Shown: positions 5,466 through 22,362 of the stretch, in pieces
Layout of the letters: the number at the start of each line of letters is the position of its first letter
How positions within the stretch are numbered: position 1 is the stretch's first letter
DNA from: a virus
Virus record (IMG/VR): IMGVR_UViG_3300029787_000354
Span: 1-22,916 of that record
Reading direction: 5' to 3' (one strand)
DNA: 22,916 nt
The notes under the pieces: generated by a model
The model's database searches: none
What the model was told of the DNA's origin: nothing
What the model saw: only the letters and a program-made list of their open reading frames with translations
Made by a program: the position numbers and the translations under genes

Positions 5466-5473
5466 TATTTATT
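5466..5473 (-). promoter_or_regulatory. possible late promoter (AATAAATA) before the gp8-like gene
   Basis: The minus strand reads AATAAATA here, overlapping the stop codon of the giant gene, 17-24 bases upstream of the gp8-like ATG. It fits the NATAAATA form described for T4-like cyanophage late promoters, and the distance to the start codon resembles that of the gp25 promoter. The region is AT-rich, so a chance match is quite possible. Confidence 0.3.
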
Positions 5474-8400
5474 CGTTATAATTAGTGGATTTCAATGGAA
5501 CCACTCTTTCAACAATTGGTGAAGTGGAAATGCCCAATAAACCGTTGTTGTAAGAATTGAAAACTTTATTTTTAGATCTATTATTTATGGAGATTCTTCC
5601 CCAAGAATAGTCACCAAATACTTCACTATGACCTAAACCAGTAAGTCCATTATAATTTTGAACGCTTACTGTAACTTTCGCAACGTAAGTTTGTCCTATA
5701 GCAACAGCATTTGTCTGAGCAATAGATACAGATGCTACTTCATATATATTATCCAAGAAACTGCTTCCTGAACCAACAACAGCACCAGCACTATTTAATG
5801 AAGTAACTCCGTTGCCAATATTAGAATTGGATACCACAAAGTAATATCCTGTCTGTATACCACTTACAGTGATAGCAGTTCCTACAACATCAGAATCTCT
5901 GAATAAAGAATCACTAGGAAGTAATAGATCAAATACGATTCCAGTGGTTACACCGACAGTAGTAGTTGATACTCCAGATATTGTACCAAAATCACCAGTA
6001 TATGAAACTTGGGTTACTTCCTCTACATATCCAGAAGTCTTAGGATCTGCTATTAAAACTACAGGTGGATTGGAAGAAGTATATCCAGTTCCAGCCACAG
6101 TTACACTAATAGAAGTAACTATACCAGCAGTGATAGAAGATGTAGCAGATGCTCTCAAACTGGATGCAGTGCTAACAGGATTTCCAATAGTTACTGATGG
6201 AACACCAGTATAACCAATACCACCATTTCCGATTACAACAGAACTGATGGTTCCTAGTCCAGAAACTACAGCAGTAGCAGAAGCAGCAACTACAGAATCT
6301 TGTGAGATAATTCTTATACTGTTATTTTTAGTCTGATTTTCCTTTGAGTTATCAAAGAATGTTCTAACATTTTCAACAAACGCAACTGTAGAACCAAGAC
6401 TAAGTGGTTGAATCAAGTTAGTGTTTGGATAGATTAAAGGCTCATATAGTTCTCTATCTTTAGGTACAGGAGTTCCATCAATGAATCTATCTTCAGTCTG
6501 TCTAGACCAAGTTACTGGTCTAATATAGGTTTCATTCTCATTTATTCCTGGTCCACCGTAAGTATTTGTGTCAACACTATCAGTGGCATTTATCTTAGTA
6601 ACCAATCTATCATTTTCCCTATATTGTATTTCATCACCTGTTATCTTAATAACATCACCAACCTTAACTTGCTCCAATATATCAACTTCTCTTACATCGA
6701 CTGCACCTGTTCCTTGATAGAATAGTAACTTAATCAAATCACCAACTTTAGGTGCTTCAGTAAATTCTATGAAACTTCCTCCATCAAAAATATAACCATC
6801 ACCAGGAATCTGAAGGATGTCATTGATGAAGACTAATAAAGTATCTTGAACTTTAACAGGAGAACCAATTCTAGATTTTATTGTTTTTTGAACACCATTT
6901 AACTTAATAGCAAATGTTCTCTTATTTCCATCAAACAAATTACTAAAGTCATCTAGAACTAAGAAGTCACCTAAAGTCCAACCAGCAAAAGTATTGCTTT
7001 CAGTTTTTTCTATTGTAAGTTGGAACTCTTTAAATGATGCACCAAGAGTAGAATCAGTTGGTATTCCAACAGTTCCTCCCACACCTATTGATAAAACTTC
7101 TTCTTGACCATAACCAGATCCTTGATTATTGATAACGAAGTCTATAATACTACCTGCCATACCTACAACGATATCTGCAGTAGCCTCTGTTCCTACACCT
7201 GCACTTCCAGTATAAACTAATGGAATGTCTGTATATGAAAGAGGAAGATCAAATATAACTTCTGGTGGATTAGTTGAAGTATATCCACTACCTGGATTTG
7301 TAATAGCAACACTAACAACATGACCATTGCTAACAGCAGCAGTACCAATAAACTGAATGTTAGGAATACCAGTACTTAAAGTTTTAACTCCAACATTAAC
7401 TGTAGTTTGGATCCCAGATCTATATCCAGAACCACTATTTCCAATTGCAATAGAACTGATAGTTCCAAGACCAGAAACAATGGCAGTAGCACCAGCAGCA
7501 ACTAAAGGTTGATATCCCAATCCTTGAGTAGATCCAACTGATATAATAATTCCACCAACTGGTACAGTTGCGGTATTTGGATCAGATGATACTGAGGAAG
7601 CAGATCCAGTGAATTGAATACTAGTAATACCTGAGTTTTCGGATAAAGTGTAGTTGCTAATAACATTAACAGGATCACTATACCTAGATGGTCCTTGAGC
7701 AATCTGATTTATTAATATAATCGCATTGTCAGAAGATATTCCAGTAACATTTGATCCATTAGATTTTAAAGTAAATTCTGTACTATATCCAGTGAACCCT
7801 GATGCTATATCATCAAAGATGAAGTTTTTAGCATATGGCTCGTCAGCAGTACCACTTACTCCAGATCTCATAAATGATCTTCCATTAAAGGTAGAGTGGG
7901 TTGCAATTCCAGTCCAATATACATCATCAGGATCTGCTGCAGTTGTACTTATAGGAGTAAGTCCTTTAGGTGCAGTATAGAAGTTAATTTCATTTCCAAC
8001 GATATTATAGTTTCCATTAATCTTAGTCACCATCGCATCAGCATCATGTGCTGAAAGTTGAGTTCCCATCCAAGGTCTCTTAACTCTTAGCTTGTTAGTA
8101 GCACCAAATCCTACCATATCCACTCTCATTATCTCATCATCAATTTGTAGAAGATCTCCACCAAATATGGAAGTTATTCCAGTGATCGTTATATTGTCAA
8201 TATTATAATCAACATTACCAGCTAAGTTTGTAGTGACAGCACTAGCAACAACTGGAGTTTGAATTACATTATCAAGACTTACCAAAACTTTGCTATTTGC
8301 ATTTTTAGAAGTAAGAGAATGAGAAGTTCCTATTCCTACAGCAGTAATATCTAAAATAACAGGTTTAGCTTTTAAAGCATCTTCTGCAGTTGCAGCAAAT

Positions 8401-11400
8401 TTTAGATTTGAATCATCAGACTTCACAGCAAATACATTTGATGGAAGTTTATCGGTAGATCCTACACCAGGAATGGTTGTTGTCTTAATACCAATTGCCT
8501 GACTTGTACCAGCACCTAAAGTGGCATAGGTTAATGATTCACCAGTTACAAAGTAATGATCTGGTATAAAGACCTTATTATCAGTTAGATTAACAACACT
8601 CGATTGAGCACCTAAGAATTGTCTCTTAAATATTGGTAATTGCTTATGCTCAATTTCAAATGCACGTTTTACATCAGTTTCTGTTCCATAATACTCACCT
8701 TCACCTGTATCGATAGATGCGTTAGTAAAGCTTATTAAGTTATCACTAACAGAATCATTTACAGTTCCTACTGCGTTCTGCAAGACTCTTACTTGAACAT
8801 TTGCACTAGCTAAAGGTTTGAATGTAAGTTGTCTGACTCCTGCTCCAGTAATATTTCCTCCAAAGTCACCTAAGTTACCTCCAGTCTGAACAACACCATA
8901 TTCAGTGATGTACACTTCATTTGCATCATTAACAACTAATATTTCAGATGCTTGATATTGATTATTTGTAGTATCTTCAATACTTACAAAATAGTAAGCA
9001 CTTCTGTAGGCATCTGAATATTCTGCAACAACTGTCTCTACAGGAGATGTAGAAGAAGCAATAGATGTTTTACTAGAAGCTATTTGACCAGTATTAAATG
9101 TATGAGTACCAACTCCAGAAGAAGTGGTATCTGACATTGCTATTCTCAAACTATTAATATGATATCCTGTTGCAGTAGTTACACCTGCATTAGGAGTAAA
9201 ACTAATATTGACATAATTGCCAGATAAAGTTGCTCCATATGTTCCAATTCCAGCAGAACCTAGAGGACTTGATGGCATGTCAGAACTTACCTGACCATAC
9301 TCCATAAGTTCAACATTAGTTCCATCATGAACCATAGTTAACTCATCTACTTCATAATATTGATATGCTGAATTAGTTGCAGCTGCGGATACAGTTATCT
9401 TTGCGGACCTGTAAGTTTTTGCTATTCCTACGATGTTTACAGCAGTAGTAACTCCCAATCCAACAGTTGAAGTGGCACTACCAACATTAGCAATATCACC
9501 AAAATCAGTAGAACCTATACCAGCAACAGTATCAGCAATATTATAAGTTAATGTAGTTACAAAATAATCATTTGCTCTATACTTCTTAGGATAGAATAGA
9601 AGTCTTCCTTCATCTCCTAAAATATCAAAATCAAAAGTTCCAAGATCTGCGTATGTGTATACTCCACCATATTGGTTAAGCATCGCAGTTGAACTATTAT
9701 GAATCATAGAAATAATATAAACCTGTCTTTCTTCACCAAATCTAGTATCTTGAATATATGCAATAAATTTCTTATGTCTTGCAGAAGTTAGTGGGAATAA
9801 ATCTACAGCAGCAAATCTATCAGTTCTTGGTAAATCATTAAACTGAGAACTTACGTCATCAATCGACAAAACTCTATTTCCAATAGATTCAATATAATCT
9901 TGAAGTATCTTAGTCTTAAATACAACTTCATTAGATATAACAGTGGTATCATCAACTTTTAGAGTTTTTTCTGTTACCAAGTCATAATCAGGCATAGTAT
10001 TCAAACTCAACACTGAATCCAACATTGCTATTGATTCAACTGAACCTGTTTGGTTGGTTCCTAAACCAACGCTTTGATTATTTTGAGTAATATCATTTTC
10101 AATAACCAAATCACTAAATTTCTTAAATCCAGCAGTATGGTTTAACGAAGAAACTGCTTCATCCCATTTTTCTAACTGAACAGTAGATTTTAATGCATAT
10201 GAGAAGTACTGATAATAATCATTATCGGATAATCTTTGTAAGTTATTATTTAAGATACCTGTCTCACGTTTCCATCCTTTTGGAACAATAGAAGAAGCAC
10301 CAATATCATATTGAGCATTATATGATATTCTTTCTTTTACTTTACCTTTAGTTCCTGAAGAATCTCCAGTTATAGTTTCATTTATATTAAACAATCTTGG
10401 AGATGATACTTTTAGACTACCTGATAATCCATTCCATGATTGGACAGTTCCAGTTGCTGATTTTGATGTAATTGTCTCACCTTTCTCAAAATCATTGGTT
10501 ACCACTTCTACCCCAAAGATAGGGAACCATTTCTCTGGTATTATTGTACCCGAAGAATTCTGAACATCAAAATTACCAGGAATATTACCATCAAAAATTG
10601 AATCTTGTAAACTGTAAGTAACACTACCAAGTGTTCCACCAATATTAGGATCTGTAGCTGTTATCTTGAATCGTTTGTAATTATAGTTTGATGAATTGTA
10701 TCCTTTACCTGTAGTTCCAACTCCAACACTAACATTTTCGATTAGAACACTCTCACCAACTGCAAATGGATAATCAGCAGCACTACTAAAACTTGCACCT
10801 ATGGTAACAGTTACATCTTTAGTTCCTAGATTATAATCCATAGAACTAATGCTAACTCCATTAGAGTTATTGACTGGAATAATAGTAGGAGCATCCTTAT
10901 TCAAGGAAGTTGTATTTTTAACAATTCCAACATTAGAGTTTCCTAAAGTATATTCTAAAACTACTTCTGTTACTGGTAACTTAGTAATTCCATCCAATAC
11001 AACCAAATCTGGTGCTGTAGTGTAGAAATTACCAACTGAGGTAATTCCAACCTTACTTAAAGAATAGAAAGAATCTACAGATACGTATTGAGGAAGTAAA
11101 GCTTTAGGTTGTAAAGTTTTATCAGCAGAATATTCGTATCCAATATCTTGGATATCTACACTTTCAATACGACCAATAGTAAGACTAATAGGATCTAAAA
11201 CTGCACCATAACCTTTTGATGTAGTAACACCTAAATTTGCTACTCTATCAATACCAGGAATTCTACTATACCCAAGACCTCCATTTCTAACACCAACCAA
11301 AGCTATGGGACCACGAGCAGTTTTAGATGAGGTAAGATACTTAAATTTACCATCTGCTGGAACATAAAGAGTTTTACCTGCTTCTTGAGTTAAATTAAAA

Positions 11401-14400
11401 CTAAATGTAGTGGAACCAATTCCAGAAATTGAACGAACTTGATTTAAAATATTCTTTTCAGTTATTAAAGAAGATGGTGAAATAATATTTGATGTATCTT
11501 TTATTATTTCTTTTTTAACATCTGTGTTTAGTGAAAGGTTAGCAGGAACCATACTATAATATAAATTTTCTGGTGTATCATTAGAAATTTGGAAACTTAG
11601 ATTTGCATCCCCACTGACACCAGGAGTTCCAGTCTTTGTAACATTAAATATTGTAGATTTAGGAGTGTTATTGTAAACATTTTTACACTCTTTATCAAAA
11701 TAAAGATTGAAATCAAAAGCAGCATAACTTACACCACTTTTAGAAAATGACAATGAAGAATCTGATAAATCAAAATAAACTTTTTGATTTGCTTGAACTC
11801 TGATTGGTGGATTGACTGGATTTATAGTTCCAGCAGAAGCACTTGTAATATCTACAACAGAAGCATTAAATTTTACAGCTTCATAGAAATCATTGCAAAG
11901 ACTTATTTTATTTCTATCAACAACTGATACAAAATAAATCTGATTGTCTTTAAGTCCACCCGATGCCGTACTAGCAGTATGAATAACTTTATCACCATCA
12001 GATAATCCATGATTTAGCACGGTTATTGTATTGTCTGATACTGACACATTACCAGAAGTAAAGTTCTTTGGATTAATTACTAATCTTCTATTATAATCAT
12101 TATATGCAACTGCAATTGTAGTTGTAATACCAATGGTGGCATCAATGACAATATTATCATTAATACTCATTCCATGTGTAGAAGCTGTCGCAACAGTCGC
12201 ATCAATTTGAGTAACTTCACCTTTAATTACATTTTGATAATTAGTTGTAAAGCTATGATATGTTCCTGTACCAATACCAGTAAGGTATAATGGAAGTTTT
12301 GATAAATCATCTATTGCTAGATTTCTAAATTCACCTGTGTTACCTAAACCAACTTTAACAGTGGCAATACCAATTATATCTTTACTTCTCCTAGCAACAA
12401 ATAATTTATCATTATTAGACAAATTAAAACTTGCTGCACCAGCATAGGTTTGAACACCAATAACTGCTCCACTATTTGAATTGTATATAATTTCATCACC
12501 TGTTTCCAACCCATGATCAGGAAGGTAAATTGATGCTAAAGAAAGAGTAACTTGAGTTGAACCAGTTCCTGCATTTGCTATTGTTATAGTATGTCCAATA
12601 CCAGCAGTTCCTATTCCTAAAGATTCTACTGGATTAAAGTATATCTCTTTGTTTAACTTATAATCAAATTGAGAAGATTGTGTTGATTGGTAGAAAATGA
12701 AGTTTCTAGGATCTTGATTCAATCTAGCAAAAGCTGGGTGTGCAGGACTTGCAGTTGCCGACTCACCCCTAAGAATTCTAATTCTACTTTGATCAGTATC
12801 TACATTTAAGACCCTAACCTTCTCTGTTCCAATACCAAGAATATCATTCTCTTTTATAAATGGGAAATCTAATTGACCACTTGCAATATCAACATAGGTT
12901 GTAATTCCAGTAGCAGTTACATCACCAATAGCATTACCTAGTATAAACCTACTAGTCTGGACTCCTATTTGATAAGAAGCACCACTAACAAAGGCATTCG
13001 TACTTAATCCACTAACAGTACCAAAATCTTTATTCTTAATATTATGTGGGCTTGTTGAATACCCTATGATCGCACCTATTTCTCTAAAAGGAGCAAACTC
13101 AATATTACTTACAATCGTACTAGCAACATTAATAGAATGTATTTTCTTTCCAGAAACAGCATCAACCCTTGCAACAGCTCCAGAACCACCTGACCCCTCA
13201 TTATCAAATACAACACTATCATCTACAGCATAATCAAATCCTCCTGTAACAATTCCTACTTGTGTTAATTTTCCTTCGGAAATTGATTTAACTACAGTTT
13301 TCTGCTTATGATCTTTTGATGGATCTATTAGATAGTTGTAATTTGTATTTCCATCAAGAAGTCCATATGGTGTCGTATTTCTATACCAGTCACCATTATT
13401 GATATCAACATCCTTTTGATTTGAATACCTATCAAAGTTAAAAGCAATAGGATCAGACTTAAATGAGTTTCCTACAAAGTATGGGAACTGAGGTCTTCTA
13501 TAGTTTTTGAATGGTGCTTGAGAATCGATAGATTCGGAATCTATAGTAGCAAAATATGCATATGTTCCATTTGGATAATCTGGAGTTATACCATATCTTC
13601 CATTATGTTCATCTAGATCACCATTTTCAGAATATACATAATCTTCAACAAAAGATCCACTTGGGAATACTAATTCACCAGACTCACCTAGTGGATTTGG
13701 TCTATCGGATACAACACCTATAGTGTATCCAGACTTCATAATTTTAATTGCACCACCAGTAGGAAGAGTGTATGCATAAGGACCATATATGGGGTTTCCA
13801 TCATATGCCCAACCTAAAAGTGGTGAGTGGTAGATAGAAGTTTCTTCTACATCATCTTCAAGAGATAAGTCTACAAAGTTAGCTGGGTTCCCATCAATAA
13901 CTTGTGTTGAGTAAACTGATCTTCTTAGTTTACGAGGAGAGTACAAATGAGTAAATTCAATCTCAAAATCAGAGTTAATACCTTCTGTCAAAACTCCATC
14001 ATCTTCAGATACTTTATTGGTGTTAACTAATCTTTCAAATGTATTAACAGTCCATTGTTTTGATCTTGATTCAAACTGAGCTTCTGATCCAGACGCAGTT
14101 ACGATAACAGTAGTATCTTTTTTATCATACCCCAATCCACCACTAATAACCTTTATAGATTCAATAACACCAGCATTCAATACAGGTATTAAAATACACC
14201 CTTTACCAGATCCTTTAATTTCTAAAGTTGGTGGACTATTATATTCTGCTCCAGAACTTAGAACCAAAACTTCAACAATTTTACCATTTGCAATAACTGG
14301 TTTTAATTGTGCAGAAGCTCCTGTTTTTAAAGCAAAAGTTGGTTGACGATTATAATTTAATATCTCTGAGGATCCATATCCCAATCCACCATTTTCTATG

Positions 14401-17400
14401 AATACAGATTCTACAGATCCTCTGAATATTGGTTGTACAATAGCATCAAACTTTTGACCAGTTAGAGTGGAAACTCCTATAGTTCCTTCTACAGTTACTT
14501 TAATTGGAGGATAATTAAACTCATGAGTACCAGAACCAACAGATTGTAAATTAACATACTTCTTATTATCATAATAGAAATTGGATGCAGTAGATCCAAT
14601 TCCAACTTCCGACAGTCTAAATGAGTTATCACTAACCTTTGATACAATATAATTTGTATTTGTTAGACCTTCTATAGAAGTTCCTTTAGCAGTATATAAA
14701 ATTGTTTCTCCATCACCATATCCATGATCATTAATAGTAACTATATTGTTAGCTGTATTAATACCACTTATATTTGTTGTGGTTCTTTGATTAGTATATC
14801 CCGATCCAGAACTACCAATACTGATCGACTTAAGAACTTTCTTAAATTTGCTAGATCTGAAGTTATGAACACCTGTTCCATAAGATGTTAGGTCAACACT
14901 AGATATGCCCGCCACAGCAGCAGGAAGGGTGTTATGTAGTGATATGGTAAATGCATCCTTGATAGAAACATGGTATGCTGCAGACGTTGTGAGACCCCCT
15001 ACAGCGGTCTGTCCATTTGGTCTGTATATAACACTCTCACCATCTCTAAATTTGTGGAATGTCGAAAATGCAACTGTATTATTAGATAGGTTTACTAATC
15101 CAGCATTTTGTATTGCATTAAATTCTACAGAGTGTTCTACAGAAGATAAATTGGATTTTGCCTTTGCTCCTTTACCATTACCACCAGTGATAGTGATAAT
15201 AGGATCATCCATATAGTCAAATCCACCATCTATTATTTCAATTCTATTCAAATCACCTTTAACAGCACAGAATGCAGAACATCCTGATCCTACAGAATCA
15301 GTTACAGTTAAAACAGGAGGATTGATGACATCATAATCATTTCCACCACTAACAACTGCAATTTCTTCAAGAGGACCATAAAATACAGAATCATTTGACT
15401 TATAGTTTGATATTTCAACACCATTAATTAAAATTCCTGTTTGACCAGGTTTTGTTTCAGACTTAACCGATGATGTAATAGGATTTTTTATTTTTCTAAT
15501 AAGTTGCTGAGCTTTCAGTCTTTGATCTGAAAACTTTGTCAATTCAAACCTATTATTAGTTACAGTTCCTGTTACTGTGATAAATTTACCATTGTAGATA
15601 TTGGATTTACTTTTCGCAATCTTAATCGTATCAACATCAACCTTCTTAGCAAAATATACACCATCAACGATGTTTAATTTATTTGTGCCTTCACCAGCTA
15701 CGTATGTTAATGAATCTCCAGTATAAAAACCATGATTAGCAATAGATAGATTTTCCCCATTAAAGGTTCCTGTAACTATTACAGATCTATCACTAACATC
15801 TAATGATTCATTAAGATATGATGGAATAGAAGGTGAACTAAGATATAATGAACCTTCTTTAGTATAAACATTTTCAACGTTAGTAGTTTGAATGCTTAAT
15901 TCAGGATAATCTTGAACATTAGCTTTAGATAATATCTTTTCAATTGTAAAGTGTCTTGTTATGTCTAGAAGACCTTGATCGTTAATAGTAAAGTGATAAT
16001 CATTTACAATAGAAGTTATATTACAAACTAAGTTGACACCATCAGTAGTTTTGATATTAGCTTTATCACCTATTGTAAAATTATGCTTATCGTAGGTGAT
16101 AACTCCATATGTGGAGTTGGAAGCATCCAACAACTCTAAAGATTTTATATTATAGTTTGTTGCAATATTAAAGAACCAATTATTTGCACCTTCATTCGTA
16201 ATTCCTATACCCAAGCCTTGTGGTTCAATAACATCACCAACTTCAGTCGAAAATTGTAGTGAATGTGTATTTAATTTTGAAGTAACACCAGTTACTCGAA
16301 CTTTACATAGATTTGATGTTCCTACACCAACATATCCGTATGCAAACTCATCAACTCTCAAATCTTGCTGAGAATCTATATTTTTAGTAACTCCAGAGCA
16401 TCCATAGAACTGAGTGAGTGATTTTGATGTATAAGTTATCTTTGTACTGATTCCATCAGAGTGTTTTGTGACTAATGTTCCTGAAGTGTTAAATCCTATT
16501 GTTGAATCAACATCAAGGACGGTAGAACCGATAGAAACAGGTGTAATTACCTTTGTAGTTGGATGAATTGAGAATTCACCAAATATAGATCCCCTTACTT
16601 CAATATCTTTGTCATAATCATAGTCCAAGCTAATGATATAGTAATCTTTATCATTACGTCGAATCCTTTGAACATTAGTTATAGATCCCCTTGCACCTTT
16701 GATTCCATTTTGGTTAAAATCTTGAAAAAGTGTCCTATTTTCAAGATCTTGTGGATTTCCTTCAAGTGCCTCAACAACTAGATCTTTACAAATTCGATAT
16801 TGAGCATCTGAAGGCGCAAAAAGATAATCTCTTGGTTTTATTACTTCTACATCAACACCATACAATGCACGGAACAAAATTTCAAAAGATTTATCAGTTC
16901 CTTTTGATGTATAGAAGTCTTTTGACTGTTTTATGAAAATTCTTTGATCTACACTTGAATCTAACTGTCTTTCTTCAAATCCTGGTGTAATTTGACCCTT
17001 TACATTCGTAAAAAACTCTTTTAAGAATAAAATACTTAAATTATCAACTGTCGCATTTTGAGAATGAGTAGATATTTGTGATTCATTGAAAACTAACTCA
17101 TCAGGATTGTTGGGACTCCTAAAAGAGGTAATTCCACTAAATCCCCTAGAGCATCCAGTAAAGGTATTGGTTGTTATTCCACTATATGTTATAATTTCAG
17201 AATCAATCTTAATCAAGCCATAAGATTCTGGAAATCCACTCGTCGAATCAACAGAAATAGTACTATCAACAAAACTAACATCCGAAGTCAATGTAGTAGA
17301 GTCTACAAGATTTGTTAATTCATCAATTTTGACATATTTGTCAATATTCTTAAAAAGATCTAAAGTCAATCCCTGACTTTCCATAGATCTATAATATTCA

Positions 17401-17495
17401 GTCAAAAATTCCCCAACAAGTGGGTAATCTTCTCTTACATAATCAGGCAGTTGATTGGATACAACTGAACTAATCTTAACTCTAGTATCTGCCAT
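5469..17495 (-). CDS. giant modular baseplate protein in the gp7 position
   Basis: This gene encodes 4008 residues, over half of the window. It lies between gp6 and a gp8-like gene, where T4 has gene 7 (gp7 is 1032 aa), so it is probably the wedge core protein or a functional replacement. Residues 1-60 (REDYPLVGEFLTEYYRSMES at 21-40) and 190-225 resemble the N-termini of large structural proteins at this locus in marine phages. The rest is modular. There are about 14 copies of a GGxGYxxxPxV beta motif, at least six copies of an NHGxxxGDxVxY module, and three 'IDxExIxYxG...RG' modules near residues 95-120, 1547-1590 and 3116-3150. A YHYH-like motif lies at 1228-1242, and three related modules of about 125 residues at 2576-2909. 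No signal peptide or membrane segment is seen. The ATG follows the gp6 stop by 9 bases without a Shine-Dalgarno. The structural role is firm, the gp7 identity less so. Confidence 0.8.
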   Translation of the reverse strand: MADTRVKISSVVSNQLPDYVREDYPLVGEFLTEYYRSMESQGLTLDLFKNIDKYVKIDELTNLVDSTTLTSDVSFVDSTISVDSTSGFPESYGLIKIDSEIITYSGITTNTFTGCSRGFSGITSFRSPNNPDELVFNESQISTHSQNATVDNLSILFLKEFFTNVKGQITPGFEERQLDSSVDQRIFIKQSKDFYTSKGTDKSFEILFRALYGVDVEVIKPRDYLFAPSDAQYRICKDLVVEALEGNPQDLENRTLFQDFNQNGIKGARGSITNVQRIRRNDKDYYIISLDYDYDKDIEVRGSIFGEFSIHPTTKVITPVSIGSTVLDVDSTIGFNTSGTLVTKHSDGISTKITYTSKSLTQFYGCSGVTKNIDSQQDLRVDEFAYGYVGVGTSNLCKVRVTGVTSKLNTHSLQFSTEVGDVIEPQGLGIGITNEGANNWFFNIATNYNIKSLELLDASNSTYGVITYDKHNFTIGDKANIKTTDGVNLVCNITSIVNDYHFTINDQGLLDITRHFTIEKILSKANVQDYPELSIQTTNVENVYTKEGSLYLSSPSIPSYLNESLDVSDRSVIVTGTFNGENLSIANHGFYTGDSLTYVAGEGTNKLNIVDGVYFAKKVDVDTIKIAKSKSNIYNGKFITVTGTVTNNRFELTKFSDQRLKAQQLIRKIKNPITSSVKSETKPGQTGILINGVEISNYKSNDSVFYGPLEEIAVVSGGNDYDVINPPVLTVTDSVGSGCSAFCAVKGDLNRIEIIDGGFDYMDDPIITITGGNGKGAKAKSNLSSVEHSVEFNAIQNAGLVNLSNNTVAFSTFHKFRDGESVIYRPNGQTAVGGLTTSAAYHVSIKDAFTISLHNTLPAAVAGISSVDLTSYGTGVHNFRSSKFKKVLKSISIGSSGSGYTNQRTTTNISGINTANNIVTINDHGYGDGETILYTAKGTSIEGLTNTNYIVSKVSDNSFRLSEVGIGSTASNFYYDNKKYVNLQSVGSGTHEFNYPPIKVTVEGTIGVSTLTGQKFDAIVQPIFRGSVESVFIENGGLGYGSSEILNYNRQPTFALKTGASAQLKPVIANGKIVEVLVLSSGAEYNSPPTLEIKGSGKGCILIPVLNAGVIESIKVISGGLGYDKKDTTVIVTASGSEAQFESRSKQWTVNTFERLVNTNKVSEDDGVLTEGINSDFEIEFTHLYSPRKLRRSVYSTQVIDGNPANFVDLSLEDDVEETSIYHSPLLGWAYDGNPIYGPYAYTLPTGGAIKIMKSGYTIGVVSDRPNPLGESGELVFPSGSFVEDYVYSENGDLDEHNGRYGITPDYPNGTYAYFATIDSESIDSQAPFKNYRRPQFPYFVGNSFKSDPIAFNFDRYSNQKDVDINNGDWYRNTTPYGLLDGNTNYNYLIDPSKDHKQKTVVKSISEGKLTQVGIVTGGFDYAVDDSVVFDNEGSGGSGAVARVDAVSGKKIHSINVASTIVSNIEFAPFREIGAIIGYSTSPHNIKNKDFGTVSGLSTNAFVSGASYQIGVQTSRFILGNAIGDVTATGITTYVDIASGQLDFPFIKENDILGIGTEKVRVLNVDTDQSRIRILRGESATASPAHPAFARLNQDPRNFIFYQSTQSSQFDYKLNKEIYFNPVESLGIGTAGIGHTITIANAGTGSTQVTLSLASIYLPDHGLETGDEIIYNSNSGAVIGVQTYAGAASFNLSNNDKLFVARRSKDIIGIATVKVGLGNTGEFRNLAIDDLSKLPLYLTGIGTGTYHSFTTNYQNVIKGEVTQIDATVATASTHGMSINDNIVIDATIGITTTIAVAYNDYNRRLVINPKNFTSGNVSVSDNTITVLNHGLSDGDKVIHTASTASGGLKDNQIYFVSVVDRNKISLCNDFYEAVKFNASVVDITSASAGTINPVNPPIRVQANQKVYFDLSDSSLSFSKSGVSYAAFDFNLYFDKECKNVYNNTPKSTIFNVTKTGTPGVSGDANLSFQISNDTPENLYYSMVPANLSLNTDVKKEIIKDTSNIISPSSLITEKNILNQVRSISGIGSTTFSFNLTQEAGKTLYVPADGKFKYLTSSKTARGPIALVGVRNGGLGYSRIPGIDRVANLGVTTSKGYGAVLDPISLTIGRIESVDIQDIGYEYSADKTLQPKALLPQYVSVDSFYSLSKVGITSVGNFYTTAPDLVVLDGITKLPVTEVVLEYTLGNSNVGIVKNTTSLNKDAPTIIPVNNSNGVSISSMDYNLGTKDVTVTIGASFSSAADYPFAVGESVLIENVSVGVGTTGKGYNSSNYNYKRFKITATDPNIGGTLGSVTYSLQDSIFDGNIPGNFDVQNSSGTIIPEKWFPIFGVEVVTNDFEKGETITSKSATGTVQSWNGLSGSLKVSSPRLFNINETITGDSSGTKGKVKERISYNAQYDIGASSIVPKGWKRETGILNNNLQRLSDNDYYQYFSYALKSTVQLEKWDEAVSSLNHTAGFKKFSDLVIENDITQNNQSVGLGTNQTGSVESIAMLDSVLSLNTMPDYDLVTEKTLKVDDTTVISNEVVFKTKILQDYIESIGNRVLSIDDVSSQFNDLPRTDRFAAVDLFPLTSARHKKFIAYIQDTRFGEERQVYIISMIHNSSTAMLNQYGGVYTYADLGTFDFDILGDEGRLLFYPKKYRANDYFVTTLTYNIADTVAGIGSTDFGDIANVGSATSTVGLGVTTAVNIVGIAKTYRSAKITVSAAATNSAYQYYEVDELTMVHDGTNVELMEYGQVSSDMPSSPLGSAGIGTYGATLSGNYVNISFTPNAGVTTATGYHINSLRIAMSDTTSSGVGTHTFNTGQIASSKTSIASSTSPVETVVAEYSDAYRSAYYFVSIEDTTNNQYQASEILVVNDANEVYITEYGVVQTGGNLGDFGGNITGAGVRQLTFKPLASANVQVRVLQNAVGTVNDSVSDNLISFTNASIDTGEGEYYGTETDVKRAFEIEHKQLPIFKRQFLGAQSSVVNLTDNKVFIPDHYFVTGESLTYATLGAGTSQAIGIKTTTIPGVGSTDKLPSNVFAVKSDDSNLKFAATAEDALKAKPVILDITAVGIGTSHSLTSKNANSKVLVSLDNVIQTPVVASAVTTNLAGNVDYNIDNITITGITSIFGGDLLQIDDEIMRVDMVGFGATNKLRVKRPWMGTQLSAHDADAMVTKINGNYNIVGNEINFYTAPKGLTPISTTAADPDDVYWTGIATHSTFNGRSFMRSGVSGTADEPYAKNFIFDDIASGFTGYSTEFTLKSNGSNVTGISSDNAIILINQIAQGPSRYSDPVNVISNYTLSENSGITSIQFTGSASSVSSDPNTATVPVGGIIISVGSTQGLGYQPLVAAGATAIVSGLGTISSIAIGNSGSGYRSGIQTTVNVGVKTLSTGIPNIQFIGTAAVSNGHVVSVAITNPGSGYTSTNPPEVIFDLPLSYTDIPLVYTGSAGVGTEATADIVVGMAGSIIDFVINNQGSGYGQEEVLSIGVGGTVGIPTDSTLGASFKEFQLTIEKTESNTFAGWTLGDFLVLDDFSNLFDGNKRTFAIKLNGVQKTIKSRIGSPVKVQDTLLVFINDILQIPGDGYIFDGGSFIEFTEAPKVGDLIKLLFYQGTGAVDVREVDILEQVKVGDVIKITGDEIQYRENDRLVTKINATDSVDTNTYGGPGINENETYIRPVTWSRQTEDRFIDGTPVPKDRELYEPLIYPNTNLIQPLSLGSTVAFVENVRTFFDNSKENQTKNNSIRIISQDSVVAASATAVVSGLGTISSVVIGNGGIGYTGVPSVTIGNPVSTASSLRASATSSITAGIVTSISVTVAGTGYTSSNPPVVLIADPKTSGYVEEVTQVSYTGDFGTISGVSTTTVGVTTGIVFDLLLPSDSLFRDSDVVGTAITVSGIQTGYYFVVSNSNIGNGVTSLNSAGAVVGSGSSFLDNIYEVASVSIAQTNAVAIGQTYVAKVTVSVQNYNGLTGLGHSEVFGDYSWGRISINNRSKNKVFNSYNNGLLGISTSPIVERVVPLKSTNYNE
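8768..9771 (-). repeat. three related ~125-residue modules within the giant protein
   Basis: Residues about 2576-2909 contain three diverged copies of one module. Each has an opening beta stretch (KFIAYIQDTR; SAKITVSAAA; SAYYFVSIED), a central VYIIS / LTMVHD / ILVVND element, an 'xxxxYG' element (MLNQYGGVYT; VELMEYGQVS; VYITEYGVVQ), and a closing beta stretch with a glycine turn (RLLFYPKKYR; VNISFTPNAG; QLTFKPLASA). The YG elements fall near residues 2604, 2726 and 2857, a spacing of about 125. The boundaries were read by eye and are approximate. Confidence 0.65.
13770..13814 (-). other. YHYH-like motif inside the giant protein
   Basis: Residues 1228-1242 read GWAYDGNPIYGPYAY. This matches the hallmark 'G.A.DG.PIYGPYG' segment of the YHYH domain family, which is found mostly in secreted bacterial and marine proteins. 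Flanking sequence (SPRKLRRSVYS before; DEHNGRYGITPDYPNGTYAY after) also fits, since YHYH proteins carry a 'D..NGR...T.EYP.GTYHY' segment. The function of the domain is not established. Confidence 0.75.
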
Positions 17496-17504
17496 TTATA
17501 TTGG

Positions 17505-19505
17505 TTAGTACGAGGGAGTGGATGTTGTAGAATCTCCTAAAACACTATATGTGGGTAAAGATGTAACATCGATACCATCACCAGGAGCAATTCTTGCTAT
17601 GTTACCATTCATATAGCTAGGTGTAGATTTATATAAGGTTCCTGAAGGATTAGATCCTGAAGAAATATCATCCGTTAACATATTTAACGTACTACTATTA
17701 ATATCTAGTTGCAAATAAAGATCCTGTAATCCAATAACATCATTTGAACGAGGACAAACCGATAATTCAATAATTGGTTGCCCCTGAAGTGTTTTAGAGG
17801 TGCTTATAAGGTTAATTGCATCTATCATGATCTCACCTTTCTGATAATCAACAGTTCCAATGTTTCTTCTAATAATAGAAGGTTGGGTTTGAGAATCAAG
17901 CTTGAATAAGAATAGAGATCCTTTCTTCATATCAGCATTTGGAGAATCACTGATATAGACAGTATCATTTACTCCAAAAATTTTAAATCCAGATGACTTA
18001 ATGTTATAAGAATTTGCATTTTTGATGTAAAATGGGTTTCCGAAGCAAACTTCATACTCAGCAACCTGATTTAACCGTGCTTTAAGGTCTCTTCTCATTG
18101 CAACAGTCGTAATATTGGAAGTAACAGACTGATGACTGTTATCAATCAAGGTTTGGAACTTACTGTACTTGAATTTTGCACCATATTTGTTCATTTCACT
18201 TGATTGTGCATAATCAGTGATGTTATTTGAGATAAGTGTCTTCACAAAATCAGCACTTGGTGCTAAATTTGCATTATAATATGCAGTTATGTCAGTCTCA
18301 ACGTAGAGATACTTGAGATCGAGAATTTCGGGTACAATTCCTGCTACAGAATAGCTTCTTAACTTGTCTTTTAGGTTATCTTTGATTGAGTTAGGTACAA
18401 ATGGACCATAAAATGGTTTAATTGTAATAAAAACCTTCCCATATTGTGGTGGTTCTAATTCTTCACCACCAAAAACCGATACAGATTGAGTTTCTGGGTA
18501 AATTTTAGGTATAAGTGCTTCATAATCTGCTGCAGTCACTGCTCTATTCTGTGTAGAGTAGATTCTAGGAGCATAACTCTTGATAGAATCAATAGATTCT
18601 ATTTCTTTACCTCCTTCAGAAGCTTGTGTCGTACTAAGAAGTGAAATTCCGTTACTTACAAGGTTATTATTGTTATCTACAACACGACCATTGAACAAAA
18701 ATGAAGAAATTCCGTTTCCAGATTCACCATTTGTCTTAATATATGAAGTTTCAACGTAATTTAACGATTTTAACTTTTCACCAAAAATTCCATCACCGAA
18801 AATTAACTCATATCGTTCATCTTCAATCTCTTGAATAAAGAATACACGAGAAGATGCAGTAACTTCAAATAAACTATCAGAAAGAAGGTACTTTTTAGAT
18901 GATGTACTTGCTTGTGTATCTCTAACTTCTACTCTCAAAGTCGATGTATCAATATGATCGTTATCTAAGATGTATCTTTTAGGTGGAGAGGGGTTATCTG
19001 CTTCCACTGTAAAGTTTGCAGTCAGATATGTACCTTCAAAGATCTGAATATCAGTAAAATTAGCAAATCCGTTGTTATCTACAGGTACTGTGATGTCTGA
19101 AGGAATGGCAAATGCATAACTTTCTGAACCAAATGTAGATGCAGCAGTACAAACAACACCTTTTTTAAGTGTTAGTGTAATTGGTTTTGTGGAAAACCCT
19201 GTTGTATCCACATAAAAGGAGACAAGTGCATGTGCAGCAGTCCTAGAACGAGGAACATAACCAATATTACGTGCAAGTGCAACAACATTCTCTCTTAATG
19301 TTGCACTATCAATGAAAACCTCATTACTAACCATGTTAGCATTGTATGAGGAGATATATGTATTGTATGCAAGAACGTCAATTATGGTTGAAAGGTTAGA
19401 ACCTTCAAAGTCATAGTCCGTAAAATTGCTATTTGATCGTAAATAGTCTTTTATGGAGACTTTTATTTGATCAAAATCTAGATTTGTAAAATTTACTAGT
19501 GCCAT
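17505..19505 (-). CDS. 6: baseplate wedge subunit gp6
   Basis: The 666-aa product is almost the same length as T4 gp6 (660 aa). Its N-terminus (MALVNFTNLDFDQIKVSIKD, then DYDFEGSNLSTIIDVLAYNT and NEVFIDSATLRENVVALARN) is the conserved gp6/J-like wedge signature of T4-type phages. A mid-protein segment, SYAPRIYSTQNRAVTAADYE, followed by IYPETQSVSVFGGEE, is the region that resembles the gpJ family of contractile-tail baseplates. In T4, gp6 dimers join with gp7 and gp25 into the wedge core bundle and link neighbouring wedges into a ring around the hub. The ATG overlaps the gp25 stop by one base (TAATG), so translation is probably coupled, and the giant gene follows after 9 bases. A single TTTTCCACA site at 19188-19196 lies within the coding sequence and looks incidental. 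Confidence 0.95.
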   Translation of the reverse strand: MALVNFTNLDFDQIKVSIKDYLRSNSNFTDYDFEGSNLSTIIDVLAYNTYISSYNANMVSNEVFIDSATLRENVVALARNIGYVPRSRTAAHALVSFYVDTTGFSTKPITLTLKKGVVCTAASTFGSESYAFAIPSDITVPVDNNGFANFTDIQIFEGTYLTANFTVEADNPSPPKRYILDNDHIDTSTLRVEVRDTQASTSSKKYLLSDSLFEVTASSRVFFIQEIEDERYELIFGDGIFGEKLKSLNYVETSYIKTNGESGNGISSFLFNGRVVDNNNNLVSNGISLLSTTQASEGGKEIESIDSIKSYAPRIYSTQNRAVTAADYEALIPKIYPETQSVSVFGGEELEPPQYGKVFITIKPFYGPFVPNSIKDNLKDKLRSYSVAGIVPEILDLKYLYVETDITAYYNANLAPSADFVKTLISNNITDYAQSSEMNKYGAKFKYSKFQTLIDNSHQSVTSNITTVAMRRDLKARLNQVAEYEVCFGNPFYIKNANSYNIKSSGFKIFGVNDTVYISDSPNADMKKGSLFLFKLDSQTQPSIIRRNIGTVDYQKGEIMIDAINLISTSKTLQGQPIIELSVCPRSNDVIGLQDLYLQLDINSSTLNMLTDDISSGSNPSGTLYKSTPSYMNGNIARIAPGDGIDVTSLPTYSVLGDSTTSTPSY

Positions 19506-19906
19506 TAGCGTGTTGGCTGTAGTGCGAATTCTAATTGTTGAGGTAAAACGTCTATTCCTACGATGTCATACGTAATCTTTACGTCAAATGCATTGTTATC
19601 GTAGTCAGGAATACACTCTACCTTCTTCAATTCCACTCTTGGTTCATAATTAGTGATGGTTGTTATAATCTCTTCCTTAATTGCGGCTGCTGTTTGATCA
19701 TCTAAGTTCTCAAAAAGAGATTCTTTGACTCTTGAACCCAAATCGGGATCAAAAAATCGTTCACCAGGAGTCGTAAACACCAAGTTCCTCAAAGAACGTG
19801 CAATAGCAGTCTCATTCTTAATGGTTATAAGGTCCAAATTAATTGGATTCACCTCAAGTGACATACTTAAGTCCTTAAAACCCTTGCTGATCCGTGGAGA
19901 TGGCAT
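19505..19906 (-). CDS. 25: baseplate wedge subunit gp25 (gpW/gp25 family)
   Basis: At 133 aa the product matches T4 gp25 (132 aa). It shows the family layout: an N-terminal 'TIKNETAIARSLRNLVFTTP' segment (about 28-47), GERFFDPDLGS (48-58), a helix (AAAIKEEIITTITNYEP), and the conserved EPRV tetrapeptide at 88-91. It then ends in an alternating beta strand pair (VKITYDIVG). gp25 belongs to the gpW/gp25 baseplate family shared by contractile phage tails and type VI secretion (TssE), and pins the wedge core near the sheath initiation site. It is the first gene of the late operon, with two CTAAATA motifs 21-38 bases upstream of its ATG. No Shine-Dalgarno is present (TTTCCTTTTTTA precedes the ATG). 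Its stop shares a base with the gp6 start. Confidence 0.96.
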   Translation of the reverse strand: MPSPRISKGFKDLSMSLEVNPINLDLITIKNETAIARSLRNLVFTTPGERFFDPDLGSRVKESLFENLDDQTAAAIKEEIITTITNYEPRVELKKVECIPDYDNNAFDVKITYDIVGIDVLPQQLEFALQPTR

Positions 19907-20006: not shown

Positions 20007-20774
20007 CTAGATTATCCGAGTCTTTTCATGCCCTACGCGTATCCGAGGGTCACACCAGATCTCATATCCTTTCTCCTTGGCATCTAAGCAGAATGATACA
20101 TCTTCTCCACACATATCTTGTACTTTACCAGATTCAAAGACTTGCATCTTAGGAGCAAACCAAGGATACTCAAGGTTCTCAAAGACACCATTCTTAATCA
20201 ATACCCAACCAAAACCAGTATAGTCTACAGTAAAAGGTTTCTTCCTTCTATCCATAGTCTCAATGGTTTCGTGATTCATTACACCACCATTAGTTCTGAA
20301 GTCATCTTCTTCTAACCAGTGTGCAACTGAGGTAGTCTTACCATCTTCAGTACAATACCAACCAGCAGTGATCTCCTTTTCATTGCCATCCTTATCAATC
20401 GCAAGATCACATAACTGCCAAAACTTCTGTGCATCAAATACTATGTCAGAGTCAATCCACAATTGATAGTCATATGCAAGCTTTCCATCCCAAGGTATTT
20501 GATTAGGTCCACGTAAGACATTTGCACCTAATACCTTACATCGTGCAAAGTTAACCATAGAGGAGTAGTCTTGACTTATCTGAATTGACATACCGTTCTG
20601 AACCATGTCAAAACAAAGTTGTACAAAGTTCTTCAGAAATATGTAAGAACATCCACGACCAGGTAAACAAAATACTATTGCCTTACCTTTCATTCTTTCT
20701 TTTATAGCATCTATGTCCCAACTAGGAGTATTTGCCTTGGGTGCAGCTGCTTTAACAGTAAATCCTTTTGCCAT
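20007..20774 (-). CDS. GT-A fold glycosyltransferase-like protein
   Basis: The 255-aa product has the outline of a GT-A type, nucleotide-sugar-dependent glycosyltransferase. It has an opening strand (KAIVFCLPGRGCSYIFLKNF, about 31-50) and a DxD-like metal/nucleotide motif in YDYQLWIDSDIVF (DSD at 108-110). A GFGWVLIKNGVFE acceptor-side segment follows (187-199). The C-terminal GEDVSFCLDAKEKGYEIWCD (223-242) ending in VGHEK resembles the E/D-D plus histidine end of GT2-like enzymes. Its substrate cannot be read from the sequence; phage enzymes of this type can modify virion proteins, DNA or host surface glycans. It stands alone, with a perfect host-type promoter, an AAGGAA ribosome binding site 10 bases before the ATG, and its own terminator. 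This suggests early expression, unlike the late operon downstream. Cysteine is frequent (9 residues), fitting a cytoplasmic protein. Confidence 0.7.
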   Translation of the reverse strand: MAKGFTVKAAAPKANTPSWDIDAIKERMKGKAIVFCLPGRGCSYIFLKNFVQLCFDMVQNGMSIQISQDYSSMVNFARCKVLGANVLRGPNQIPWDGKLAYDYQLWIDSDIVFDAQKFWQLCDLAIDKDGNEKEITAGWYCTEDGKTTSVAHWLEEDDFRTNGGVMNHETIETMDRRKKPFTVDYTGFGWVLIKNGVFENLEYPWFAPKMQVFESGKVQDMCGEDVSFCLDAKEKGYEIWCDPRIRVGHEKTRII

Positions 20775-21612: not shown

Positions 21613-21780
21613 TTACCTGTCAATTTCACTGTCTTCGATATAACTTTCCACGCACTCATCTGGTTCTAATTGTAATACTTTTCTCCAGTCAATATTACGT
21701 GCTTCAAAGTCATTTAGTACGTCTAGAGTTAGTGTTACTCTGACTCTTTTTCTTTGTGCCTGAGTGTAAATTACTGACAT
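21613..21780 (-). CDS. small hypothetical protein, 55 aa (start moved downstream)
   Basis: The product begins MSVIYTQAQRKRVRVTLTLD and ends in an acidic tail (LEPDECVESYIEDSEIDR). A basic N-terminal third (QRKRVRV) followed by VTLTLDVLNDFEARNIDW looks like a small folded protein; no function recognised. The frame stays open upstream to a TTG at 21843 and an ATG at 21816. Both lie inside the consensus promoter at 21815-21843 (TTG in the -35 box, ATG in the -10 box), so they would be outside the transcript. The ATG at 21780, about 28 bases after the predicted transcription start, is therefore chosen. No Shine-Dalgarno precedes it (CCCTCCTCAGTTTA). Confidence 0.75.
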   Translation of the reverse strand: MSVIYTQAQRKRVRVTLTLDVLNDFEARNIDWRKVLQLEPDECVESYIEDSEIDR

Positions 21781-21802: not shown

Positions 21803-21955
21803 TTAGTTAAGTTCATTATAGTACACCTTCCAGTATATGTCAAGTGGTACGAATGTATTTATAAAATGTTGGTGTGGAAAACGTAATATCTCCGTGGGGA
21901 TGATATCGGAGGTCTTGACATTTCGGGGAGTTTCTGTTAGACTGCTCCCTAACAT
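21803..21955 (-). CDS. doubtful small ORF, 50 aa
   Basis: An ATG at 21955 opens 50 codons ending in TAA at 21803-21805. The product reads MLGSSLTETPRNVKTSDIIP, then EILRFPHQHF and ends WKVYYNELN. Composition is plausible for a protein and it lies 18 bases after the preceding ORF, in line with the tight spacing of this block. Against it, it overlaps one TTTTCCACA site and the whole consensus promoter for the 55-aa gene, and has no clear ribosome binding site. It may be non-coding regulatory DNA. Confidence 0.35.
   Translation of the reverse strand: MLGSSLTETPRNVKTSDIIPTEILRFPHQHFINTFVPLDIYWKVYYNELN
21815..21843 (-). promoter_or_regulatory. perfect sigma-70 promoter (TTGACA-N17-TATAAT)
   Basis: TTGACA (21838-21843), a 17-base spacer and TATAAT (21815-21820) on the minus strand match the host housekeeping consensus fully. 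It should start transcription near 21808 and drive the 55-aa gene, and read through to the 42-aa gene and the terminator at 21362-21397. Confidence 0.87.
21856..21863 (-). promoter_or_regulatory. TATAAATA late-promoter-like motif
   Basis: The minus strand reads TATAAATA, the T4 late-promoter consensus, 13 bases upstream of the early-type promoter of the 55-aa gene. It could give late expression of the same gene, or be a chance match in AT-rich DNA. Confidence 0.25.
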
Positions 21956-21973
21956 CACTACTCTCTGACACAT

Positions 21974-22162
21974 TTAACACAACACATTATACACTGTAAG
22001 ACTGTTAATTACTACAAGGATTACAGAGGGATGGATAACACTTTTCCACAGGTGTTTTCCACAGTTTATAACATGTTTTCCCCATACTTGTGGAAAAGGT
22101 ATAAACAACCAACCCCTATTTATAATACCATTTAAAACATCTATTAAGGGTAATTTACTCAT
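21974..22162 (-). CDS. doubtful small ORF, 62 aa
   Basis: An ATG at 22162 overlaps the previous stop (ATGA), a common sign of translational coupling, and opens 62 codons (MSKLPLIDVLNGIINRGWLF ... NSLTVYNVLC). The last third (VILVVINSLTVYNVL) is hydrophobic. Against it, three TTTTCCACA sites and a TATAAATA motif lie within it, the middle is encoded by those repeated sites (CGKHLWKS), and I recognise no family. The reading frame may be only a by-product of an origin-like or regulatory region. Confidence 0.38.
   Translation of the reverse strand: MSKLPLIDVLNGIINRGWLFIPFPQVWGKHVINCGKHLWKSVIHPSVILVVINSLTVYNVLC
22117..22124 (-). promoter_or_regulatory. TATAAATA late-promoter-like motif
   Basis: TATAAATA on the minus strand lies beside the TTTTCCACA cluster. 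It matches the T4 late consensus, but no certain gene starts just downstream. Confidence 0.25.
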
Positions 22163-22332
22163 AATTTACCTCTTTTCACTACATTTTGCCTCTCATAGTT
22201 ATCATTAACCACCTGTGTAATCCTCAGAATAACTTCATTCTTTTCCACAGGATTTCCATACTTCAGGTTATCAATTAAACCATTAATATCAGTACGAATT
22301 GTTGACATTAATTGTGAGTAATTCATATCCAT
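22159..22332 (-). CDS. small hypothetical protein, 57 aa
   Basis: The product begins MDMNYSQLMSTIRTDINGLI and continues KYGNPVEKNEVILRITQVVN; it appears mainly helical. The frame is open further upstream to an ATG at 22353. The ATG at 22332 is chosen because a GGAGG lies 9 bases before it and it follows the 47-aa gene's stop by one base (TAATATG). Its own stop overlaps the next ORF's ATG (ATGA). A later ATG at 22308 would be used if transcription started from the internal promoter-like sequence at 22333-22362. No function recognised. Confidence 0.68.
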   Translation of the reverse strand: MDMNYSQLMSTIRTDINGLIDNLKYGNPVEKNEVILRITQVVNDNYERQNVVKRGKL

Positions 22333-22362
22333 ATTATACATCCTCCACACCATTTATGTCAA
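22333..22362 (-). promoter_or_regulatory. sigma-70-like promoter within the 47-aa gene (TTGACA-N18-TATAAT)
   Basis: TTGACA (22357-22362), an 18-base spacer and TATAAT (22333-22338) on the minus strand lie in the last codons of the 47-aa gene. A start near 22326 would place the ATG at 22332 just outside the transcript, so either this promoter serves genes further on or the 57-aa gene then starts at 22308. The hexamers are exact, but the coding overlap leaves room for chance. Confidence 0.5.

Follow-up and report, generated by a model that had tools for sequence, protein, structure and literature searches.

Where and how do the abundant T4-like cyanophages begin copying their DNA, and could a cluster of host-type DnaA boxes in such a genome mark the place? 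The question is raised by a viral contig of 22,916 bp (IMG/VR record IMGVR_UViG_3300029787_000354), referred to here as the window, which was analysed over its whole length. Its minus-strand genes, gene 25 (19505–19906), gene 6 (17505–19505) and a single 4008-aa gene 7-like baseplate ORF (5469–17495) as in Bellamy and S-SM2, mark it as a T4-like cyanophage, the nearest isolates by gene 6 being S-SM2, S-B05, P-TIM68 and Bellamy. A preliminary description made from the sequence alone had recorded five exact copies of TTTTCCACA, three on the plus and two on the minus strand, within 377 bp. This observation is confirmed. The window holds six exact copies against 0.40 ± 0.67 in dinucleotide-preserving shuffles, none of 100 of which reached six, the sixth copy lying at 19188 inside gene 6. 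When one mismatch is allowed, the whole-window count is not unusual (12 against 10.6), and the signal therefore lies in the exact word and its clustering. Of the five clustered boxes, one lies inside a real small gene, whilst the other four do not lie in selected coding sequence. The features of the region are as follows.

22333–22362, minus strand: sigma-70-like promoter, TTGACA-N18-TATAAT (consensus match only), upstream of the small gene at 22159–22326.
22159–22326, minus strand: small upstream gene (55 aa, MNYSQLMSTIRTD...), real by dN/dS, with no family match.
22241–22249, plus strand: exact box TTTTCCACA, the outermost, inside the coding sequence of a small gene (codons P-V-E-K); the gene is under purifying selection, so that coding may keep this box.
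22089–22097, minus strand: exact box TTTTCCACA.
22076–22084, plus strand: variant box TTTTCCCCA with one mismatch, 21 bp from the next box; the same word occurs upstream of dnaN in 12 host loci.
22055–22063, plus strand: exact box TTTTCCACA.
22042–22050, plus strand: exact box TTTTCCACA.
21974–22162, minus strand: open frame of 62 codons overlapping the central boxes, with dN/dS near 1, and so probably not a gene.
21935–21958, minus strand: element 2 (GTGATGTTAGGGAGCAGTCTAACA), a conserved phage-only site downstream of the central boxes.
21914–21923, minus strand: AAATGTCAAG, the conserved tail of element 2.
21873–21881, minus strand: exact box TTTTCCACA between element 2 and the promoter, shared with the related viral contigs L009 and L016.
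21815–21843, minus strand: sigma-70 promoter consensus, TTGACA-N17-TATAAT, 115 bp downstream of the start of element 2 (modal distance 119 in relatives).
21613–21780, minus strand: small gene behind the promoter (MSVIYTQAQRKRVRVTL..., phrog_12516, of unknown function).
20007–20774, minus strand: 255-aa protein of phrog_1574 with a weak match to a glycosyltransferase family, between the module and gene 25.

The cluster is not peculiar to this contig. Viral contigs found with gene 25 as bait carry three to four of the same 9-mers 1.9–2.9 kb upstream of gene 25 (L007, L009, L012, L013 and L016), and more distant ones carry two to four copies at 4.1–4.9 kb (L020, L030 and L079). In all six complete cyanomyovirus genomes scanned in full, the best cluster in the entire genome is single and lies 1.6–7.7 kb upstream of gene 25: at 58,050 in S-SM2, 58,194 in P-TIM68, 19,231 in S-PM2, 52,553 in Syn9, 50,629 in Syn19 and 48,835 in S-SM1, with gene 25 at 61,019, 60,300, 26,884, 58,348, 52,238 and 53,403, respectively. 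T4 has two single copies, whilst Bellamy and S-B05 have none. Among 120 viral contigs with tandem TTTTCCACA, 60 had no cyanomyovirus-like ORF, so other phage groups also carry such boxes, and arrays of up to eight boxes in 300 bp occur in cyanophage-like contigs (L206).

Several lines of evidence identify the repeated word as a DnaA box. TTTTCCACA is the published DnaA box of Synechococcus elongatus, Anabaena and Cyanothece, the last two confirmed by assay (PMC4674748, PMC3480399). In the Cyanobiaceae, the family of the marine hosts, which are the likely hosts, 13 exact copies lie 145–319 bp upstream of dnaN in 11 of 30 loci, against 0.17 expected, an enrichment of about 75-fold; three other genomes have dense arrays between thrC and dnaN, and the host DnaA keeps the domain IV signature of solved DnaA–DNA complexes. 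Four Cyanobiaceae genomes also share a second small TTTTCCACA cluster away from dnaN, in three of the four near a GNAT acetyltransferase-like gene, which is possibly a DnaA-titration or regulatory locus. In the phages, the 230 bp upstream of element 2 contain 96 exact boxes against about 0.2 expected per strand, and the commonest single-base variants are TTATCCACA (15), TTCTCCACA (14) and TTTTCAACA (5), a DnaA-type pattern, whereas synonymous CGK codons are nearly absent. Same-orientation spacings of 11, 12, 13, 21, 22, 32, 42 and 43 bp fit a helical repeat of 10.5 bp (Rayleigh R 0.91, n=18; 0.90 for the eight distinct values) and, among distinct values, do not fit a 3-bp period, although the contigs are related and these statistics are only indicative. 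Finally, in close relatives the ORF over the central boxes has dN/dS near 1, whilst the neighbouring gene gives values of 0 to about 0.3 in all but one pair.

The boxes belong to a larger module, which the preliminary description did not recognise. Downstream of them by 50–200 bp, in the direction of gene 25, lies a 24-bp site with the consensus GTGGTCTTAGCGCGCATTCTATCA, followed by (A/T)GTCAAG, which is designated element 2. In the six complete genomes its best match is always the one at this place, although the margin is small in Syn9, S-SM1 and P-TIM68. Element 2 lies on the gene-25 strand upstream of gene 25 in most of 17 isolates examined, including phages without exact boxes: Bellamy, S-CAM9, MITS9220M01, S-RSM4 and P-SSM2, and more weakly S-B05, P-HM1 and S-SSM7. 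No convincing copy was found in P-SSM4, ACG-2014f or T4. It appears not to have been borrowed from the host, as it is absent from host dnaN/dnaA loci and, as an exact pattern, from 81 Cyanobiaceae genomes. Among the loci collected, 177 distinct sites scored above threshold, or 101 after removal of near-duplicates. The partial dyad shows no covariation beyond that of shuffled sequences and an Rfam search gave no match, so that element 2 looks like a protein-binding site in DNA and not an RNA hairpin. In some contigs, L182 and L186 among them, short direct repeats of the type AAATGTCTCTGG / AAATCCTTCTGG occur just before it.

Boxes and element 2 go together more often than chance would allow. 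Two pattern scans for element 2 in viral contigs gave 107 usable loci, of which 52 have at least one and 38 at least two exact boxes in the 230 bp upstream, against 2.3% and 1.1% of random segments of the same contigs. A reciprocal count with an element-2 matrix (37 of 60 cyanophage-like contigs against 3 of 60 others) is partly circular, since the matrix was trained on contigs that also hold boxes; the pattern scans and the isolates scanned afterwards are less so. In the commoner class A of 66 loci, 60 have a sigma-70-type promoter match within 400 bp, against 3.7% by chance, and in most it starts 118–120 bp downstream of the start of element 2. In class B, by contrast, only 12 of 41 loci have a match, at varied distances. 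Relatives of the phrog_12516 gene sit right behind the promoter in S-SM2, Bellamy, MITS9220M01 and S-SCSM1, but not in P-TIM68. AT content is only modestly raised near the module, reaching 0.75–0.76 in some 50-bp bins, with no strong AT-rich unwinding region apparent.

The module can also be set beside published sequencing data. Rihtman et al. 2016 (PMC4893331) reported about double read density in S-PM2d (LN828717) at 10,500–12,000 and raised density in S-RSM4 (FM207411) at 137,800–139,000, of unknown cause, and saw no shared sequence. Element 2 lies at 9,774 (plus strand) in S-PM2d and at 140,189 (minus strand) in S-RSM4, the latter being by far the best match in the 45 kb examined (23.7 against 12.0). 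Taking the block coordinates from the text of that paper, in both phages the block starts 0.7–1.2 kb downstream of element 2 in its own direction and upstream of gene 25; we estimate the probability of a placement within 2.5 kb by chance in both genomes at roughly 10^-3. The blocks are syntenic, however, each containing a Kyano_Gp96 (PF23790) gene, 54% identical between the two, so that Gp96 is an alternative anchor. S-RSM4 has no boxes, and hence the peak goes with element 2 and not with the boxes. Puxty et al. 2015 (PMC4503421) read the S-PM2 peak as terminal redundancy; their 9.5-kb deletion (5,799–15,339) leaves the module intact.

The preliminary description had proposed a replication origin, a titration site for host DnaA or a DnaA-controlled early promoter region, noting that a host DnaA-binding array would be unusual in a T4-like phage, and this interpretation is supported only in part. 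A non-random, conserved cluster of cyanobacterial DnaA boxes is upheld, and two outcomes that had been named beforehand as fatal to it did not occur: relatives keep the boxes whilst the overlapping ORF drifts neutrally, and the word does not cluster elsewhere in complete genomes. That the site is an origin does not follow. Cumulative GC skew shows no turning point at the cluster in six complete genomes, boxes are missing around element 2 in about half of the loci, and no report of replication starts mapped here was found in the literature. The first two of these are the strongest counter-evidence; T4-like phages, moreover, have their own replisome.

On present evidence the best reading is that the cluster is the putative DnaA-binding part of a conserved cis-acting initiation or control module of marine T4-like cyanophages, most likely a replication origin, albeit this is held tentatively and at rather less than even confidence. 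What the sequences themselves establish is the array of host-type boxes with its DNA-level conservation and helical phasing, the single-copy, phage-only, dyad-like element 2, the promoter consensus at a fixed distance in many phages, and the conserved genomic address. All binding, early transcription and replication itself are inferred. In this view host DnaA would bind the phased boxes, a phage protein would bind element 2 and unmodified host RNA polymerase would start at the promoter early in infection. DnaA-assisted melting, together with the promoter's transcript (an R-loop, as at T4 origins), would then allow the phage helicase and primase to load and begin the first round of copying, before recombination-dependent replication takes over. 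Phages without boxes would use element 2 and the promoter alone, so that DnaA would be an enhancer of initiation and not its sole initiator; the boxes, being missing in about half of the loci, cannot be essential and are a frequent but dispensable part. It is possible, although doubtful, that these phages use a dedicated and previously unrecognised replicator in which host DnaA and a phage factor on element 2 cooperate with an early promoter, lineages gaining and losing DnaA dependence as they gain and lose boxes. The module offers a precise site in many phages at once, ties the unexplained read peaks to one shared sequence element, and suggests that a lytic T4-like phage tunes its start to a host replication protein.

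Of the alternatives, an early promoter control region accounts for most of the data nearly as well, and is possible though less likely. Host DnaA, with a phage factor on element 2, would activate or repress a small early operon and let the phage sense the host DnaA level or cell-cycle stage. In favour are the fixed distance from element 2 to the promoter in class A and the conserved small gene family behind it in several phages; the boxes are optional and variably placed, as expected of a modulatory site, and cyanophages are known to borrow host regulator sites in the case of PhoB (PMC10976474). Yet few class B loci have a recognisable promoter although element 2 is conserved there, the downstream gene differs between subgroups, and the read-density peaks are left unexplained. 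Those peaks are best explained by a packaging-linked role for element 2 (pac-like, or next to the genome ends), with the boxes as a separate neighbour and the double coverage as terminal redundancy. About two-fold reads extend over only 1.2–1.5 kb just downstream of element 2 in two phages, one of them without boxes, and a peak in lysate DNA can mean preferred packaging or terminal redundancy. This reading is nevertheless unlikely, since packaging needs neither DnaA boxes nor an early promoter, and the sequenced lysates held 22–48% non-phage reads, so that unpackaged DNA could also contribute.

A sink that titrates host DnaA and stops host chromosome replication is a remote possibility. Host genomes hold only 15–26 exact boxes, with which many phage copies carrying two to eight boxes each could compete, but a sink needs neither a fixed address nor phasing beside element 2 and a promoter, and many phages have only two or three boxes. 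Least probable is a coding coincidence, in which TGTGGAAAA encodes a repeated Cys-Gly-Lys motif in a small peptide. A 62-codon frame does cover the central boxes and some spacings (12, 21 and 42) are multiples of three, but this reading is contradicted by the near absence of synonymous codons, variants that include stops, the 10.5-bp spacing, dN/dS near 1 and boxes on both strands.

No report of DnaA boxes in cyanophages or description of element 2 was found in the open literature searched, and the closest published statement is a single theta origin predicted for Syn9 (PMC2984593), whose position is not given there. Cyanobacterial chromosomal oriC, beside dnaN in S. elongatus, Anabaena and Cyanothece, shares the identical box, clustered, in both orientations and non-coding, and host loci share the variant TTTTCCCCA. 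The phage site, by contrast, is not beside dnaN, is joined to a phage-only element and a predicted early promoter, has boxes that are dispensable across relatives, and shows no skew switch. The T4 origins oriE, oriF and oriG, at which a promoter transcript forms an R-loop before recombination-dependent replication, are comparable in that a promoter, here predicted from its consensus, lies beside the putative initiation site, and the recombination genes are conserved in cyanomyoviruses (PMC2984593). T4 itself, however, has no TTTTCCACA cluster, and cyanomyoviruses lack MotA, a host sigma-70-type promoter consensus and host DnaA boxes being found here instead. DnaA-dependent replicons such as pSC101 and P1 oriR share the bipartite layout of host DnaA boxes plus an element-specific site, whereas the phage module has no iterons, a single element 2, no initiator gene identified beside it and a lytic T4-like replisome. 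Neither host oriC, nor T4 origins, nor DnaA-dependent plasmids have this element or address. The promoter early stem-loops (PeSLs) of T4-like phages likewise combine an early promoter with a dyad in a variable region of small genes, but PeSLs occur in many copies (PMC4503421), whilst element 2 is one per genome, lies upstream of the promoter and has a dyad that does not covary.
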